The notes under the pieces were generated by a model that saw only the letters and a list, made by a program, of their open reading frames with translations, was not told the DNA's origin and did no database searches. 64,000 bases of DNA, from assembly GCA_025457915.1 (NCBI GenBank), contig JALOTL010000002.1:124001-188000 (forward strand). The letters are read 5' to 3'. Of this stretch, positions 46,392 through 53,420 are shown piece by piece (position 1 is the first letter of the stretch; each line of letters opens with the position of its first letter). This DNA is from Spirochaetota bacterium (lineage in GTDB: Bacteria; Spirochaetota; UBA4802; UBA5550). The position numbers and the translations under genes were made by a program.

Positions 46392-46416
46392 AGCCCATGT
46401 TCGCAGAGAATGTAAA

Positions 46417-48912
46417 ATGAAATCAACCAGCCGGAACAGGGTGAATTTTGCCTTCGCGATGATGATTATTATTGGCGCGATTTTTTTCTCCGGCAATGCC
46501 GGCGCGGCGAAGATAGAAGTCGACCATGAGATCAAATCCCTGCCCCTCGGAAGACAGGTGGAATTGTTCGAGGACAAAAGCGGGAAGCTGACTGTCGGAG
46601 AGATTCTTTCCGGCGAGAACTCCGCGAAATTCAAACCGTCCATTAGCAACAATCCGAGTTTCGGATATACGGGTTCCGCGTACTGGGTGAGGTTCGCCGT
46701 CAACAACTGGACCGGCGACCAGATAGACTGGTATCTGGAGGTCGCCTATCCGCATCTTGATCTGATCGAGCTTTACGTTACGGACGGGAAGGGAACGGTC
46801 CTGGATAAAAGAACTGCCGGAGACGGTTTTCCCTTCGCCATGCGGGAGATCAACCACAGGAACTTCGTGTTCAAGCTGAAAGAACCGGCGAGGGGCGGAC
46901 ACGAATACCTGATGAGAATTAAGTCCACCGGCGCCATGAACCTGCACCTCGTCATGTGGAGCCCGGATGAATTCAACGACTGGAAAAGCATCGTGCAGAT
47001 TGTCCTCGGGATGTTCTACGGGGCCATCCTGGTCATGATAATATACAACCTGTTCCTTTTTTTCTCGATAAGGGACACGAGCTTCCTGTACTATGTGCTT
47101 TATTATTCATTTTATTTCATATACCAGATGAGCCTGGTCGGCCTGGCCTTCCAGTATCTATGGCCCGATCAGGTGTGGTGGCACAACAACAACCTGCCTG
47201 TGCTGATATGCGGAACGCTTTTTTTCGCCCTCCTGTTTTCAAGGAAGTTCCTTGATACGCCCGGGCACCTGCCGTTTGCCGACAGGTTTCTTAAAATAAT
47301 CATGGTGGCTGCGCTGGTTATACTCCCCTTTTCATTTTTCGGGAACTACCAGGTCATGATGACCGCCATGATGATACTGTCGGTCATTTCCGCGCTGATT
47401 CTTTTCCCCGTATCGATACGTATCTACATCTCCGGCTATCTGCCGGCGAGGTTTTACGTGATCGCCTGGACCGCGTTCTGGATCGGGACCATAGTGTATT
47501 CTTTGAAAATGTTCTCCCTGATCCCGGACATGTTCGCCACCAGGTGGGTGCAGCAGGCCACCTCGATGATGGAAGTGGTGCTCATCTCGCTCGGTCTCGC
47601 AGACAGGATAAATTACATGAAGAAGGAGCTTGAAGACCTCAACGTCAATCTGGAAAGCATTGTTGAGGCCAGGACCAGGGACCTGGACAAGGCCCTCAAG
47701 GAAAAGGAGAAAAAGGACCTCGAGATCCAGATGGAATACGAGCTTACAGGCAACCTTCAGAAGGGGTTCCTTCCGCCGGTTCCCTATTACTTCGAGGGGA
47801 TCAAGGTGGACGCCTTTTACCGGTCGATGGGGAAGGTCGGCGGCGATTTCTACGACATATTCCACATGAAGGGCGGATATATTGGAATTCTTGTCGCCGA
47901 CGCTTCCGGGCACGGCATGCCGGCCGCCTTCCTCACGGCGCTGGCGAAGATTAGCTTCGACGAGGCGATACAGAGCTGCCTGTTCCCGGCCGACATACTG
48001 AGGCAGGTGAACAACGAGCTCATCACCGCGATAAAAACCGACGATTTCGTGACTGCGTTTTTCGTGGTGATCAGCCCCGCGTTCGAGGTTTTTTACGGCA
48101 ACGCGTCGCACCAGAAGGCCATAGTCCTGAGGAGCGACGGCCGCGCGATCGAGGAATGGGACACGAACGGGCTTTTTCTCGGAGCGCTTGAGGAGGCCAA
48201 TGATATGTACGCCGAGGGCCAGGACGTTCTCCATTACGGCGACAGGCTGGTCATGTATTCAGACGGCATGATCGACGCGAAAAACGGATCAAACGAAAGC
48301 TTCGGGGAAACAAGGTTTAAAAACCTGATAAAGGATACGGCCGATCTTCCGCTCCAGGAGGCCAAGGACGGGATGATCGCAGAGTGGGACCGTTTTACCG
48401 GCCAGATGCCCCAGACGGACGACGCGACCATGGTGATAATAGAAATCGATCCCGCCTACAGCCGGCTTTTTGAATACAGGGACAGGGGATTCAAGCTCCT
48501 TTCCGAGAAGAAGTTCGATGAGGCGATCGTGGAGCTGAAACTGGCCCTCGAGATAAATGGGATGGATGAAAAAACGCACCTGTACCTGGGCGAGTGCTAC
48601 CTTAAAAACGGAAGCTTTGAAAAATCAGTGGAACACCTTCAGCAATACCTGAAAAATAACGAGGTCGACGCCAACGTATGGTTCCACATCGCGGATGCCT
48701 ATTATAAAAACGGCAATTACGCGATGGCCTACAAGTCCGCGCTGATGGCCTCGCAGCTCCGGAACAGCTTCACCGACGCGCTTGCCGTCTGCGGCCATTC
48801 GCTCATGAAGCTCGGCAACGCGGCCGAGGCCGTGAAATTCTGGAACAGGATACTCGCGTATGATCCCGGGAACAAGACCGCGAAAAGCGAGCTTGAAAAA
48901 TGCAATGCTTAA
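46417..48912 (+). CDS. 7TMR-DISM receptor with SpoIIE/PP2C phosphatase and TPR domains
   Basis: An 831-residue signalling protein. It has a signal peptide (about 1-31) and a periplasmic 7TMR-DISM sensor (about 35-185). Seven membrane helices follow (about 195-410), then a short coiled coil with the basic/acidic KALKEKEKKDLEIQ. The PP2C-type SpoIIE phosphatase lies at about 435-680, with metal motifs GGDFYDIF, ADASGHGMPAAF, YSDGMIDAKNG and TDDATMVII. Four or so TPR units (about 690-830) close the protein. Known relatives dephosphorylate anti-sigma-factor antagonists in response to an outside signal. ATG 46417 begins a proper signal peptide; a TTG at 46381 is rejected. The 3' end overlaps the next gene by eight bases. 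Confidence 0.92.
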   Translation: MKSTSRNRVNFAFAMMIIIGAIFFSGNAGAAKIEVDHEIKSLPLGRQVELFEDKSGKLTVGEILSGENSAKFKPSISNNPSFGYTGSAYWVRFAVNNWTGDQIDWYLEVAYPHLDLIELYVTDGKGTVLDKRTAGDGFPFAMREINHRNFVFKLKEPARGGHEYLMRIKSTGAMNLHLVMWSPDEFNDWKSIVQIVLGMFYGAILVMIIYNLFLFFSIRDTSFLYYVLYYSFYFIYQMSLVGLAFQYLWPDQVWWHNNNLPVLICGTLFFALLFSRKFLDTPGHLPFADRFLKIIMVAALVILPFSFFGNYQVMMTAMMILSVISALILFPVSIRIYISGYLPARFYVIAWTAFWIGTIVYSLKMFSLIPDMFATRWVQQATSMMEVVLISLGLADRINYMKKELEDLNVNLESIVEARTRDLDKALKEKEKKDLEIQMEYELTGNLQKGFLPPVPYYFEGIKVDAFYRSMGKVGGDFYDIFHMKGGYIGILVADASGHGMPAAFLTALAKISFDEAIQSCLFPADILRQVNNELITAIKTDDFVTAFFVVISPAFEVFYGNASHQKAIVLRSDGRAIEEWDTNGLFLGALEEANDMYAEGQDVLHYGDRLVMYSDGMIDAKNGSNESFGETRFKNLIKDTADLPLQEAKDGMIAEWDRFTGQMPQTDDATMVIIEIDPAYSRLFEYRDRGFKLLSEKKFDEAIVELKLALEINGMDEKTHLYLGECYLKNGSFEKSVEHLQQYLKNNEVDANVWFHIADAYYKNGNYAMAYKSALMASQLRNSFTDALAVCGHSLMKLGNAAEAVKFWNRILAYDPGNKTAKSELEKCNA

Positions 48913-49477
48913 AAGTCATTCGATGCCGGCTGTTTTAATCATCGCCTTCCTCCTGGCATTTACTGGCGCTTCCGCGCTCAAGGACCCCACGCCCCCGGTC
49001 CCGCCTGAAGTTGTTATGAAGGAAGGGGCCTCCGGTGGGAATTTTTCTTTTTCGGCCTCCATCAGGTTCGCGGACGGAAAAGAGGCATCGGGCATTATTT
49101 ATTTTTCCGCCGGCGTTCTTGAAATTGCCGCAAAGGGCGGCAGCGGCGAAAGGGTTTCCGTCAGGGTCCAGGAAATCGGGACGCTTGACATATTGAGGTG
49201 GAAGGGTGAGAGCCGGGACGGAAAGACATATGTATTCAGGCCCTCCCTTGAAAAAATCACCTTGAAAAACGGGAGATCGATTGAGGGTTCGATCGCGGGC
49301 AGGGTCATTGACGGCTTTATTTTCCAGGAACAGAATGTAAAACGGAGACTTTTCACGGTTTTCTATGATTACCTGAAGAACGGCGCCTGGTCGAACTCGG
49401 GCGAGACGGCCGCTGATTATCCCGAGAAAAATCCTCACCCCGGTGTCGTGGTCAGGATTTCCGCAGGAGAGGATTGA
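48905..49477 (+). CDS. Exported protein of unknown function
   Basis: A 190-residue protein with a signal peptide (about residues 1-25) and a mature part of alternating strands: FSFSASIRFADGKEASGIIYF, RVSVRVQEIGTLDIL, ITLKNGRSIEGSIAGRVIDG. These look like two short beta-barrel or Sm-like halves. No family is recognised. ATG 48905 overlaps the end of the 7TMR-DISM gene by eight bases, so translation is coupled; a longer frame from 48860 overlaps more and lacks a signal peptide at its very start. It may be a partner of the receptor. Confidence 0.65.
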   Translation: MLKSHSMPAVLIIAFLLAFTGASALKDPTPPVPPEVVMKEGASGGNFSFSASIRFADGKEASGIIYFSAGVLEIAAKGGSGERVSVRVQEIGTLDILRWKGESRDGKTYVFRPSLEKITLKNGRSIEGSIAGRVIDGFIFQEQNVKRRLFTVFYDYLKNGAWSNSGETAADYPEKNPHPGVVVRISAGED

Positions 49478-49502: not shown

Positions 49503-51521
49503 TCACCTGTTAATCGTCAGTTTGATCCTGGACAGGCTTTCTGAAATCTCTTCGAGCCCTTCGGGAAATTTTTCAGTCTGAAGCTGATGGGTCGAAACGA
49601 ACCAGTCCAGTATGTTCTTTACCCTTTCATTGTCTACGCCGCTCGCATCCGCGGCCTTGATGTAATTCAGGGCAAGGTCTATCGTACCGTTCTTTATCCC
49701 GAACCCTATGGAAAGAAGCAGAAGGATTATCGATGAATAGCTGTATTTTTTGTAATAGGATATTATATTTTCAAGGAATTCGATGTTTTCAATAAGTATT
49801 TTCTGTGATTCGTTCGTCCTGCCCGCCAGTTTTTTTAAAAGAGCGTATGCGAAATCAGGATTGTACTGGATGAGAGTCTTCAGTTCGTCGATCCCTGCTA
49901 CGACCAGCATGCTGTTCCTGGAGCAGACCGCGGTGGCGTTCCTCTTGTTGTTGCCGAGTATGGCCATTTCGCCGAGGATCTCGCCGGGTCCCAGCGTGGT
50001 CAGGATTATGACCTCTCCGGATTCCTTTTTTTTCTGGATGTCCACGCTTCCCTTTTTTATGAGATAGAACTCCCTTCCGTAATCGTCCTCGTTGAATATC
50101 ACCGCGCCCTTCGGGTATTCCCTGACCTTCTGGGTTATGATGAACGGCCTTATGAAGTATTTTTTTATATTGTCGAATCCCGGAAGCTTGAGGTTGAAGA
50201 AGAGCCCCTTGCTGACCCTGGAGATGTAGTATTTGATTATGAAGACGATAAACCTGAAAGGCGGTTTTTTGAAGTTTACTATCGTCCCCGTCGGAAGGTC
50301 TTTTTCCGTATGGTTCTCCCATGCCGTCACGCAGGTGGATGCCGGGGATATAGTTTCCTTCGTTCCGAGGTTGATGTAAAATTCCCTGTTGATGCCGAGC
50401 GACTCGTAGGTCCTGAGGAAACATCCGGTGATATTGATGTCGAAGGTGACGAGCGTCTCTTCGTAAAGGTTGTCCTTGTAGAGCATGGCGTCGTACATGA
50501 CCGGTATCTTTATGATGCTGTTTTTTATGTATTCCGGATTGATTGAGCCGACCAGGGTGGCAAGCATCGTTATGGACAGGGGCAATACCCCGGTTATCAG
50601 TATTTTTTCATCCGTCGTTATAAGGATGTTGAAGTATCCCGAGATCTCGTTCCGGTATGGAAGCGCGATCGCGGCCACGACCGCAGAGAGGATTATCAGT
50701 CCCGACTGAAGGAGCCCGAAGTTCCACTTGAATACCGGTATGATCGTCGAGCCCTGGCTTTCCATTGATCTCGATATCCACCTTTCGTATCTCGGCTGCC
50801 TGTACACCAGCATCCAGTCTTCGAAACCCAGGCCGATTTTTTTCAGATCATCGAAGAAGGGAACCGTTTTCGTCTGCGCAAGGATGACCTCGAGGCCGAT
50901 CGCGGAGGCTATGAGAATCGGACCGACCAGGTAAGAATTGGTCTTTCCAGTAATCAGTAGGAAATCGTAGATTCCATGTATCAATATCGAAATTATCAGG
51001 CCCCTGAGGATGTAATGGATTTTATAAATAATGTGCCCGCTGTATTTCATGAGGCCCAGGTAGTAGCCCAGGATACCGCAGGTGACCAGGTGCAGTGGAA
51101 CGGATATGATCGACCTGGCCAGTATTATAGAATAACCGTAACTGGCCGCATAAAGGATGTTTTCTATGAAGGAAAACCCCGCCCCGACCAGTATGCCGCA
51201 GACAATCGCCTCGAGGAGGTTAAAGGACCTGTATTTCCAGTGAATTATCAGGATAAAAAAAGCCGCTCCGGTTTTTTCAATAACCGCAGCCTTGATGAAG
51301 CTGTTGAAGGCAATATCGCCAGAAGGCAACAATTCATCGATGACCACCTTCAGCGATATTAGGACCAGGCCCAGCCCCGCGCCTGAAAGGAAGGAAAACG
51401 TCTGCTCCGGGAATGCCGGCTTGTAATTTATCGTTTTGAAGTACGACCGGAAGTGCCTGAAATATATGAAGTAAAAAACCGGTACCGGCAGAAGTGCGGT
51501 TATAATTTCTCTGGGGGTCAT
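49503..51521 (-). CDS. PrsW-like membrane protease fused to a cyclic-nucleotide-binding domain
   Basis: A 672-residue protein. The first 215 residues form a PrsW-type polytopic domain with the motifs AGFSFIENILYAAS, SVPLHLVTCGILGYYLG and ILIHGIYDFLL; the first PrsW motif (normally E-E-x-x-K) is degenerate and reads VIEKTGAAFF. Two more membrane helices follow (about 258-320). Residues about 335-445 look like a PilZ-type barrel (VTFDINITGCFLRTYESLG), a tentative call. Residues about 460-580 are a cyclic-nucleotide-binding domain: YPKGAVIFNEDD, FYLIKKGSVDIQKK and LGPGEILGEMAIL. The C-terminus is helical. PrsW proteases cleave anti-sigma factors; ligand-controlled proteolysis is a reasonable guess. 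Confidence 0.8.
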   Translation of the reverse strand: MTPREIITALLPVPVFYFIYFRHFRSYFKTINYKPAFPEQTFSFLSGAGLGLVLISLKVVIDELLPSGDIAFNSFIKAAVIEKTGAAFFILIIHWKYRSFNLLEAIVCGILVGAGFSFIENILYAASYGYSIILARSIISVPLHLVTCGILGYYLGLMKYSGHIIYKIHYILRGLIISILIHGIYDFLLITGKTNSYLVGPILIASAIGLEVILAQTKTVPFFDDLKKIGLGFEDWMLVYRQPRYERWISRSMESQGSTIIPVFKWNFGLLQSGLIILSAVVAAIALPYRNEISGYFNILITTDEKILITGVLPLSITMLATLVGSINPEYIKNSIIKIPVMYDAMLYKDNLYEETLVTFDINITGCFLRTYESLGINREFYINLGTKETISPASTCVTAWENHTEKDLPTGTIVNFKKPPFRFIVFIIKYYISRVSKGLFFNLKLPGFDNIKKYFIRPFIITQKVREYPKGAVIFNEDDYGREFYLIKKGSVDIQKKKESGEVIILTTLGPGEILGEMAILGNNKRNATAVCSRNSMLVVAGIDELKTLIQYNPDFAYALLKKLAGRTNESQKILIENIEFLENIISYYKKYSYSSIILLLLSIGFGIKNGTIDLALNYIKAADASGVDNERVKNILDWFVSTHQLQTEKFPEGLEEISESLSRIKLTINR

Positions 51522-51762
51522 GACATCACCTGTTATTAGATCGGTAATTTTCTTCTTGTTTTATACCATAAATTCAGGCCGCACCGGACGCGGATATCAT
51601 TTTTTTGTCCCGGGCAGGGTTAAATACCATGCAGTACGCCTCGAAAAGTTTATTGTGAAGAATAAAAATTCACCGCCGGCTTGGCCCGAAGAATGCGGGG
51701 ATTTTTATTGATTGACTTTTGGCCTTTTTAAAGGAAATTTAAACACTTGTAAACTATATAAT

Positions 51763-51780
51763 GCACCGCGGTGCTTTTTT
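51763..51780 (+). promoter_or_regulatory. Hairpin plus T6 directly abutting the start codon of the LuxR gene
   Basis: A perfect 12-base palindrome GCACCGCGGTGC (51763-51774) followed by six T's (51775-51780), then ATG 51781. The layout is like an intrinsic terminator and occupies the position where a ribosome site should be. The stem is short and the loop would need to open to about four bases. Confidence 0.5.
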
Positions 51781-52737
51781 ATGAACGACAGGTTCTATTT
51801 AAACCATATATACCTATTTTTCGGAATATTGTCCTTCTGCGCCGTGACGGTTACATTCGCGCTTTCGGTGATAGTATTCAAGAAGGGTTACGGTATTTTC
51901 AGGTTTTACATTCCATCACTTTTTTTTTCCATGACAAGGCTCCTCTGCGGGATGATGATTTACTACGCGCTTTATAATTTTCCCAGGACGGAACATGGCG
52001 TCATTTTCACCCTTACGGTCCTGGTGGGGGCGATATACATATTCGAGAAAATTTTTCTGACCATGTTCCTTCACGATCTGGTCCTTAAGAACACCCGCAG
52101 AATCGCCAATGCGGCTCTTTTTGTCTTTGCCGCTGCTTATCTTGCCGCGTATTTTCTCCGGCCGCTGGAATTCAATCCCGCGGAGATGAAATTTTCCCTC
52201 TCCGTAGCAATCCAGATCCTGTTTTTAGGGGTGAATATAATCTGGATCATTTACATGATTTCCCTGGTCATGATAAGATATAAAAAACTGGGCGACCCGA
52301 TAATCAGGAGAATGATCACCGCCTTCATAGTGATCTACGCTGTCTTTACCATCACCCTGATTTACAAGGCCTTGAATTTTTCCTCCTTCAGGCCGGAGGT
52401 CCATATTTCCGAAGAAACCATTTCGAAGAGCCTTACCCTGCCCGGGGCCTTTCTGGCCTGGAGCATCATCATGTCCTATTATCTCGCCAGGTACTTTATT
52501 CCTAAAAAGGTGGCTGATTACGACGATTCATTTGAAAGGTTTGTAAGGGAATATGAAATAACCGGCAGGGAAATGGAGATATCACGTCACCTTATGAACG
52601 GCCTCAGCAATGAAGACATCAGCGACGAGCTTTCAATATCGGTCAATACGGTCAAGTCCCACCTTGTAAATATATTCAAAAAGACCGGCGCGAGAAGCAG
52701 GACGGAGCTGATGAGCATAATTATCCAGAACAAATAA
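51781..52737 (+). CDS. Membrane-bound LuxR-type transcription regulator
   Basis: A 318-residue protein with seven predicted membrane helices in the first 235 residues, followed by a cytoplasmic LuxR-type helix-turn-helix at about 255-318: YEITGREMEISRHLMNGLSN, DISDELSISVNTVKSHL and KTGARSRTELM. Membrane LuxR regulators bind DNA from the membrane and sense an unknown signal through the helices. ATG 51781 gives MNDRFYLNHIYLF, which starts directly at the first helix; the frame is open from TTG 51712. No ribosome site is present; instead a hairpin abuts the ATG. Confidence 0.82.
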   Translation: MNDRFYLNHIYLFFGILSFCAVTVTFALSVIVFKKGYGIFRFYIPSLFFSMTRLLCGMMIYYALYNFPRTEHGVIFTLTVLVGAIYIFEKIFLTMFLHDLVLKNTRRIANAALFVFAAAYLAAYFLRPLEFNPAEMKFSLSVAIQILFLGVNIIWIIYMISLVMIRYKKLGDPIIRRMITAFIVIYAVFTITLIYKALNFSSFRPEVHISEETISKSLTLPGAFLAWSIIMSYYLARYFIPKKVADYDDSFERFVREYEITGREMEISRHLMNGLSNEDISDELSISVNTVKSHLVNIFKKTGARSRTELMSIIIQNK

Positions 52738-52925: not shown

Positions 52926-53420
52926 ATGGGTATAAACGTAGAGGAATATTATAAGAAATACGGCCCTATGGTCCTCAGAAGGTGCCGCCAGATTTTGAAG
53001 GACGAGGACAAGGCGCTGGACGCCATGCAGGAGGTTTTCGTTAAACTAATCCGGAACAGGGACAGGCTCACGGAGGAATACCCCTGCGGTCTTTTATACA
53101 GGATGGCAACGAACGTGTGCATAAACATGATAAGGACCGAGAAAAGAAGACCCCTGTACGGAAACGAGACCATGCTCCAATGTTCCGCATACAGGGACGA
53201 CAGCGAAGAGAGATTCATAGCAAGAAGCATGCTGGACGGGCTTTTCGCGGACGAGAAGGAATCTACGAAAAACATAGCCATGATGAGGTATCTCGATAAA
53301 ATGACCATGGGCGATATATCCAGGGAAACCGGGCTTTCCATATCCGGCATAAGAAAAAGACTGATAGGCTTCAGGGCCAGGGCCAGATCATCAGAGACCT
53401 TTGCCTCGATGAGTTTTTAA
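52926..53420 (+). CDS. ECF-type RNA polymerase sigma factor
   Basis: A 164-residue sigma-70 family member. Region 2 lies at about residues 6-75 (YGPMVLRRCRQIL, DAMQEVFVKLIRN, PCGLLYRMATNVCINMIR). Region 4 is at about 105-160 (IAMMRYLDKMTMGDISRETGLSISGIRKRLI). No anti-sigma gene lies next to it, which is unusual for this class. The following DNA is a decayed transporter gene. It might be controlled by the nearby PrsW-type protein or LuxR regulator, but that is only inferred. Confidence 0.92.
   Translation: MGINVEEYYKKYGPMVLRRCRQILKDEDKALDAMQEVFVKLIRNRDRLTEEYPCGLLYRMATNVCINMIRTEKRRPLYGNETMLQCSAYRDDSEERFIARSMLDGLFADEKESTKNIAMMRYLDKMTMGDISRETGLSISGIRKRLIGFRARARSSETFASMSF

Follow-up and report, generated by a model that had tools for sequence, protein, structure and literature searches.

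The window – the whole 64,000-nucleotide stretch of spirochaetal DNA analysed here – carries at 49503..51521 (-) the gene for a PrsW-PilZ-cNMP membrane protease, which encodes 672 amino acids plus a stop and is free of internal stops. Convergent with it, at 46414-48909 (+), lies a gene whose product has a 7TMR-DISM ectodomain, a membrane module, a SpoIIE phosphatase domain and TPR repeats fused together; beside the protease stop, at 48860-49477 (+), is a gene for a secreted-looking protein of 205 amino acids that has neither a Pfam family nor a C-terminal tail. On the other side, divergent from the protease, a gene at 51712-52737 (+) encodes a membrane protein of several helices that ends in a LuxR-type helix-turn-helix and looks like a membrane-bound transcription factor, and an ECF-type sigma factor is encoded at 52926-53420 (+).

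A scan of genome contigs with the single protein sequence returned no match, one with an alignment as query did. Of the 59 relatives compared, 27-28 carry a full-length homologue, with identities of 28-41%. In a tree of 53 proteins all 38 forms that carry a cyclic-nucleotide-binding (cNMP) domain fall in one clade (support 99/97), with the PilZ-only forms – among them the Leptospira interrogans protein – as a separate group (support 90/84). Other PrsW proteins of the phylum (L097 and L103) have TPR-like regions after the protease domain, most strongly L097.

Domain architecture of the protease

That the protein comprises a PrsW domain, two further helices, a barrel of PilZ fold and a cNMP domain is near certain. 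The PrsW intramembrane protease domain (PF13367), which the first-pass annotation had placed at the N-terminus, is indeed found there: it spans residues 42-195 (50937..51398, (-)), matches Pfam at E=6e-22 and scores 78.6 bits, above the cut-off of 23.5 for the superfamily profile. The NCBIfam equivalog for PrsW as the RsiW site-1 protease (NF033739) gives 63.2 bits, under its cut-off of 225, and no CPBP profile matches the protein at E<=1, PrsW being matched instead. Every one of the 27 proteins first aligned as homologues matches both PF13367 and PF00027 in Pfam.

The AlphaFold2 model (26-sequence alignment, mean pLDDT 80) gives the PrsW part seven helices, followed by two helices, a six-stranded barrel and a cNMP fold. 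The extra membrane helices that had been read from the sequence are thus also present in the model (TM8-TM9, residues 270-323; 50553..50714, (-)), at 270-286 and 303-323. They are preceded by a predicted cytoplasmic loop, residues 218-269 (50715..50870, (-)), in which homologue alignments pick out a conserved FEDW..RQPRYERWI element with E234, W236, R247 and W248 invariant or nearly so, and in which basic residues cluster (8 K/R). Since there are nine helices with the N-terminus outside, the PilZ and cNMP domains are predicted to be cytoplasmic; a nine-helix topology has likewise been predicted for the Leptospira relative (PMC12943098).

The barrel, residues 343-418 (50268..50495, (-)), escapes Pfam: no PilZ match appears at E<=1 in the 672-residue protein or in any of the 27 family members. 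Its likeness to PilZ, at first only a suspicion, is borne out by structure and by homology. Folded alone, the six-stranded barrel reaches a pLDDT of 86, and when it was excised and compared with the PDB by Foldseek the first 33 matches were all PilZ (probability 0.75-1.0, though with E of only 0.009-0.55). Moreover, in a relative that lacks the cNMP domain (L096), and which aligns to the family profile over positions 4 to 429, the homologous region scores above the cut-off of PF07238. As for ligands, RxxxR was not found before the barrel, and DINITG stands in place of [DN]xSxxG/DxSxxG; c-di-GMP binding is therefore unsupported, c-di-GMP sensing by the barrel is set aside for want of the motif, and the cNMP domain is left as the sole credible messenger sensor.

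That domain is as clear as had been supposed (residues 467-553; 49863..50123, (-); PF00027, E=1e-20), with CRP, PKA and PKG among its matches in the PDB. In CRP and PKA a glutamate and an arginine of the phosphate-binding cassette contact the cyclic nucleotide. Both residues of the cassette here, E518 to R527 (GEMAILGNNKR; 49941..49970, (-)), are kept and are invariant in both alignments, and the genome of the window holds 22 matches to class III nucleotidyl cyclases. The domain looks intact and may bind cAMP or cGMP.

Beyond it, residues 575-672 (49506..49799, (-)) are possibly a degenerate CRP-like winged helix. The structural and profile likeness is weak: against spirochaetal CRP-like proteins hhalign finds a weak register (P about 0.001-0.007, probability 5-18%), and the Foldseek alignments take in entire CRP chains, with a high rmsd. 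Because the winged helix is weakly supported, and because the region C-terminal to the cNMP domain is shortened or absent in several orthologues, we make no claim for it, and set aside the idea of a membrane-tethered transcription factor on the same grounds.

The fusion itself is not new. A 2012 paper (PMC3482391) lists fusions of PrsW to PilZ or to cNMP domains and ventures, in general terms, that such proteins are signalling peptidases; a 2026 paper (PMC12943098) reports the Leptospira protein, PrsW followed by two transmembrane helices and PilZ, proposes that it cleaves an anti-sigma factor and leaves LruC unmentioned. The 2012 paper also proposes polymorphic toxin export for other PrsW fusions, some of which carry toxins. 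Such a role is exceedingly improbable here, given that the C-terminus consists of PilZ and cNMP with no toxin domain, and that PMC3482391 itself sets signalling fusions apart from toxin fusions.

Lipoprotein partners and their shared tail

A central issue is the substrate. The neighbouring genes of 25 orthologous loci were clustered to look for a recurrent partner, and a gene that recurs beside many of the protease orthologues has a product with an N-terminal lipoprotein signal. These partners have unrelated ectodomains (CBM60; Laminin_G_3 with DUF5018; DUF4842/LruC; GLUG). What they share is a tail: the motif S-x-L-x-[AG]-[YF]-[LIM], about ten residues, a transmembrane helix and a short basic end, with nearly all partners whose N-terminus is complete beginning with a lipoprotein signal. 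In the partners first identified the motif reads S-x-L-[TA]-A-Y-L; of 36 tails gathered in all, 34 have L at position 4, 35 have A or G at position 6, and 34 have Y or F at position 7. None of the NCBIfam CTERM models reaches its cut-off on these tails, which we take to be a newly recognised C-terminal tag.

The pairing of protease and tail is strong. A profile of 16 tails, run against 59 genomes at E<=1e-3, matched in 26 of the 28 that have the protease and in none of the 31 that lack it; tails encoded away from the protease gene occur in 11 of those 28 genomes against 0/31 (p=8e-5, a value that ignores shared ancestry). Across the phylum, a profile of 24 tails was run against 393 Spirochaetota genomes at the same threshold (E<=1e-3), with the match required to include the motif. 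A tail with the motif was found in 33 of 52 protease-clan genomes and in none of the 341 without the clan; a further four genomes match in the helix only. When genomes that had supplied tails for building the profile are left out, the figures are 10/29 with protease and 0/341, with p=2e-12, which again takes no account of shared ancestry. The same contrast was seen at held-out loci, mostly from new genera and including both PilZ-only and cNMP forms, for which 20 stand-alone PrsW loci of the same phylum served as control: an adjacent tailed gene is present at 10 of 19 held-out loci (and absent from 9) against 0/20 (p=1.5e-4), and some of these pairing and co-occurrence counts are not phylogenetically independent. 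In several genomes of family f34 the tails are divergent or undetected. Co-occurrence and gene pairing with C-termini built of motif, transmembrane helix and basic end, the pattern by which sorting proteases are recognised, are both found.

These partners bear directly on the earlier suggestion that the substrate might be an anti-sigma factor, which is not upheld. Their cytoplasmic part amounts to just about 5-12 residues, so they are not anti-sigma factors, and no conserved sigma/anti-sigma pairing emerges from the 25 loci. The role classically assigned to PrsW, in which it would make the site-1 cut in an anti-sigma factor, here with cAMP or PilZ input, has its precedent in B. subtilis PrsW, which cuts RsiW (PMC4602095, PMC12943098), and draws on the Pfam-identified ECF sigma gene at 52926-53420 (+) and on sigma-70 region-2 genes that adjoin three orthologues (L074, L077 and L079). 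However, L074 and L077 belong to one genus and other loci do not keep the sigma pairing, what recurs beside the protease is a tailed lipoprotein with hardly any cytoplasmic part, and the protein falls short of the PrsW equivalog; we consider this role decidedly improbable.

One of the partners is LruC, an antigen associated with leptospiral uveitis of horses. LruC-domain genes are present in 38 of 52 protease genomes against 5/341 others, and tailed LruC was seen solely in protease genomes, few proteins from protease-free genomes having been read; some LruC proteins of protease genomes are tail-less. No tailed protein is encoded within the window. The genome from which it comes has one, a LruC-domain lipoprotein with a lipobox that ends in SSGLANYIIGVGRSNKMVLIGGLVLVMISIGGVFIVKKIKRK; it is encoded on another contig (G000:C23) and so not adjacent to the protease, and it is the likely substrate in this genome. 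In L. interrogans the two genes are neighbours: on chromosome II (L267:4815-8347) the gene for LruC (LIC20172; PMC8280789) lies 44 bp upstream of that for PrsW-PilZ (LIC_20173; PMC12943098), and this LruC carries the same tail, ending in SELMGFLLRSMKKNAILIAILLIGAGAAVAYILKRRTLSQA. In a passage of PMC8280789 that cites Verma 2012 LruC is given as an outer-membrane protein, against which PMC9901810 calls it an inner-membrane protein. A lipid at the N-terminus together with a helix at the C-terminus would hold LruC at the inner membrane, in conflict with its description as an outer-membrane protein; the conflict would be resolved if the protease encoded next to it cut the tail off.

In a further genome (G188) two tandem genes with LAAYI tails (L244:812-3986) lie ~185 kb from the protease gene; the second encodes a LruC-domain protein (NCBIfam), and both places carry DUF4842.

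The variant active site

Whether the protein can cleave such a tail depends on its catalytic residues. The first PrsW motif had been noted as weakened, with catalysis uncertain. It is true that EExxK, the usual first motif of PrsW, is missing: motif 1 reads AAVIEKTGA, with E82-K83 (51273..51278, (-)) where EExxK/R would be expected, and for this reason we file the protein as a variant clade within the PF13367 superfamily and not as PrsW sensu stricto. By alignment E82 corresponds to the first glutamate of EExxK and K83 to the position of the second. But the apparent weakening is a signature of the clade. E82 and K83 are invariant in all 34 aligned homologues that bear a cNMP domain, whereas the five PilZ-only relatives all read EE and have an R or K at the fourth residue beyond the first glutamate, and the same split between cNMP and PilZ-only forms is repeated in 19 further loci. 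Judged from these alignments the E-K motif is a conserved clade variant; because it is invariant, we reject the reading of the site as decayed.

The remaining motifs are intact. FxxxE (F116xxxE120; 51162..51176, (-)) is invariant in 39/39 proteins compared, motif 3 (H144; 51090..51092, (-)) is invariant, HxxxD (H182xxxD186; 50964..50978, (-)) is invariant in the cNMP forms, and in all 34 of the latter F116, E120, H144, H182 and D186 are each without exception. In Rce1, a related CPBP protease, the first glutamate is the catalytic one. With that residue kept, proteolytic activity of the E-K form is likely, short of proof; for PrsW itself the reported mutant is a double one, in which both glutamates were changed together (PMC12943098).

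The opposing possibility is a pseudoprotease, in which a dead E-K form would bind tails as a nucleotide-controlled anchor or chaperone and would not cut them. It gains from two changes seen in all 34 cNMP forms, lysine in place of the second glutamate and the loss of the K/R that should stand four residues beyond the first, and from the fact that the B. subtilis tests mutated both glutamates at once (PMC12943098). Yet the invariance of E82, E120, H144, H182 and D186 is unlike typical pseudoenzymes, and PilZ-only paralogues with an intact EExxR/K adjoin genes with the very same tails. We regard a pseudoprotease as unlikely.

Proposed function and known systems

Our data lead us to propose, as the probable function, that the PrsW-PilZ-cNMP protein is a sorting or maturation protease that trims the C-terminal anchor from a few surface lipoproteins. 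From gene pairing and predicted structure we infer the course of events, covering cleavage and its site, topology, gating and outer-membrane release. Substrates would enter by their N-terminal lipoprotein signal and be pinned to the inner membrane by the helix of the tag, with its short basic cytoplasmic end. The active site (E82, E120, H144, H182 and D186) is predicted from the topology to lie in that half of TM3-TM6 which faces the periplasm, at the same height as the tag, and a cut at the tag would release the lipoprotein so that it could be carried to the outer membrane. On the cytoplasmic side, binding of cAMP or cGMP may act through the cNMP domain and PilZ fold to switch the protease, speeding or slowing cleavage.

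A link between a nucleotide messenger and membrane proteolysis, as the first-pass annotation had envisaged, is plausible; that a cyclic nucleotide actually gates the protease we put, judging by domain content, at an even chance. A protease that sorts in the same manner, with cNMP and PilZ as structural or dimerisation modules and no gating, would agree with the lack of RxxxR in PilZ, with the pairing of PilZ-only relatives to the same tails and with the variable region C-terminal to the cNMP domain. It is harder to square with the invariance of E518 and R527 across the clade and with the 22 cyclase genes of the genome, and we think it rather unlikely. The full proposal – a sorting system of spirochaetes not described before, in which a PrsW protease with cytoplasmic PilZ and cNMP sensors, switched by cyclic nucleotide, releases doubly anchored LxAYL-tagged lipoproteins to the cell surface, with LruC of Leptospira as a target in the PilZ-only branch – is made tentatively, its chances being slightly less than even.

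Given that the fusions were already in print, any novelty likely lies in the class of substrate, the tailed lipoproteins; among the papers searched there was none joining PrsW with LruC, and none listed joined PrsW with CTERM sorting. Should the proposal be true, the PrsW family would join the CPBP and rhomboid proteases as enzymes that sort by C-terminal tag, and spirochaetes would gain a sorting signal that no NCBIfam model matched here. The placing of LruC would become directly testable, and the orphan PrsW-PilZ of Leptospira would acquire a specific substrate. It would also suggest that intracellular cyclic nucleotide could act directly on the cell surface, bypassing transcription, and, if gating is real, direct control of surface-lipoprotein display by a second messenger.

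A close parallel is the myxosortase MrtX of Myxococcota with its MYXO-CTERM substrates (PMC11980579), a CPBP enzyme from which sorting by a glutamic intramembrane protease is known; the paper leaves PrsW unmentioned. Both pair a glutamic-type intramembrane protease with substrates that end in a motif, a transmembrane helix and basic residues. The protease here is, however, of the PrsW family and carries PilZ and cNMP domains; the motif is SxLxAYL, without the invariant cysteine; the substrates are already lipidated at the N-terminus; and there are one to few targets per genome, not dozens. The arrangement of one protease beside one target recalls MrtJ/JDVT-CTERM (PMC11980579). Rhombosortase and GlyGly-CTERM (PMC3237569, PMC6219818) also combine an intramembrane protease, a tripartite C-terminal signal and surface proteins, but with a rhomboid serine protease, a Gly-rich motif and no nucleotide-binding domain.

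Among homologues, Leptospira LIC_20173 (PMC12943098) has PrsW, two transmembrane helices and a non-canonical PilZ, belongs to the sister group in the tree and lies beside a tailed LruC; it differs in having no cNMP domain and an intact EExxK. B. subtilis PrsW (YpdC) shares the homologous membrane core with its four motifs, but stands alone, has EExxK and takes the anti-sigma factor RsiW as substrate. Finally, the LapD-LapG-LapA system (PMC3032545) follows a comparable logic, in that a cytoplasmic second messenger controls proteolysis of a surface protein. There the receptor is separate, the protease is soluble and periplasmic and the messenger is c-di-GMP; as far as is known the two systems are not homologous, and the likeness is one of logic only.
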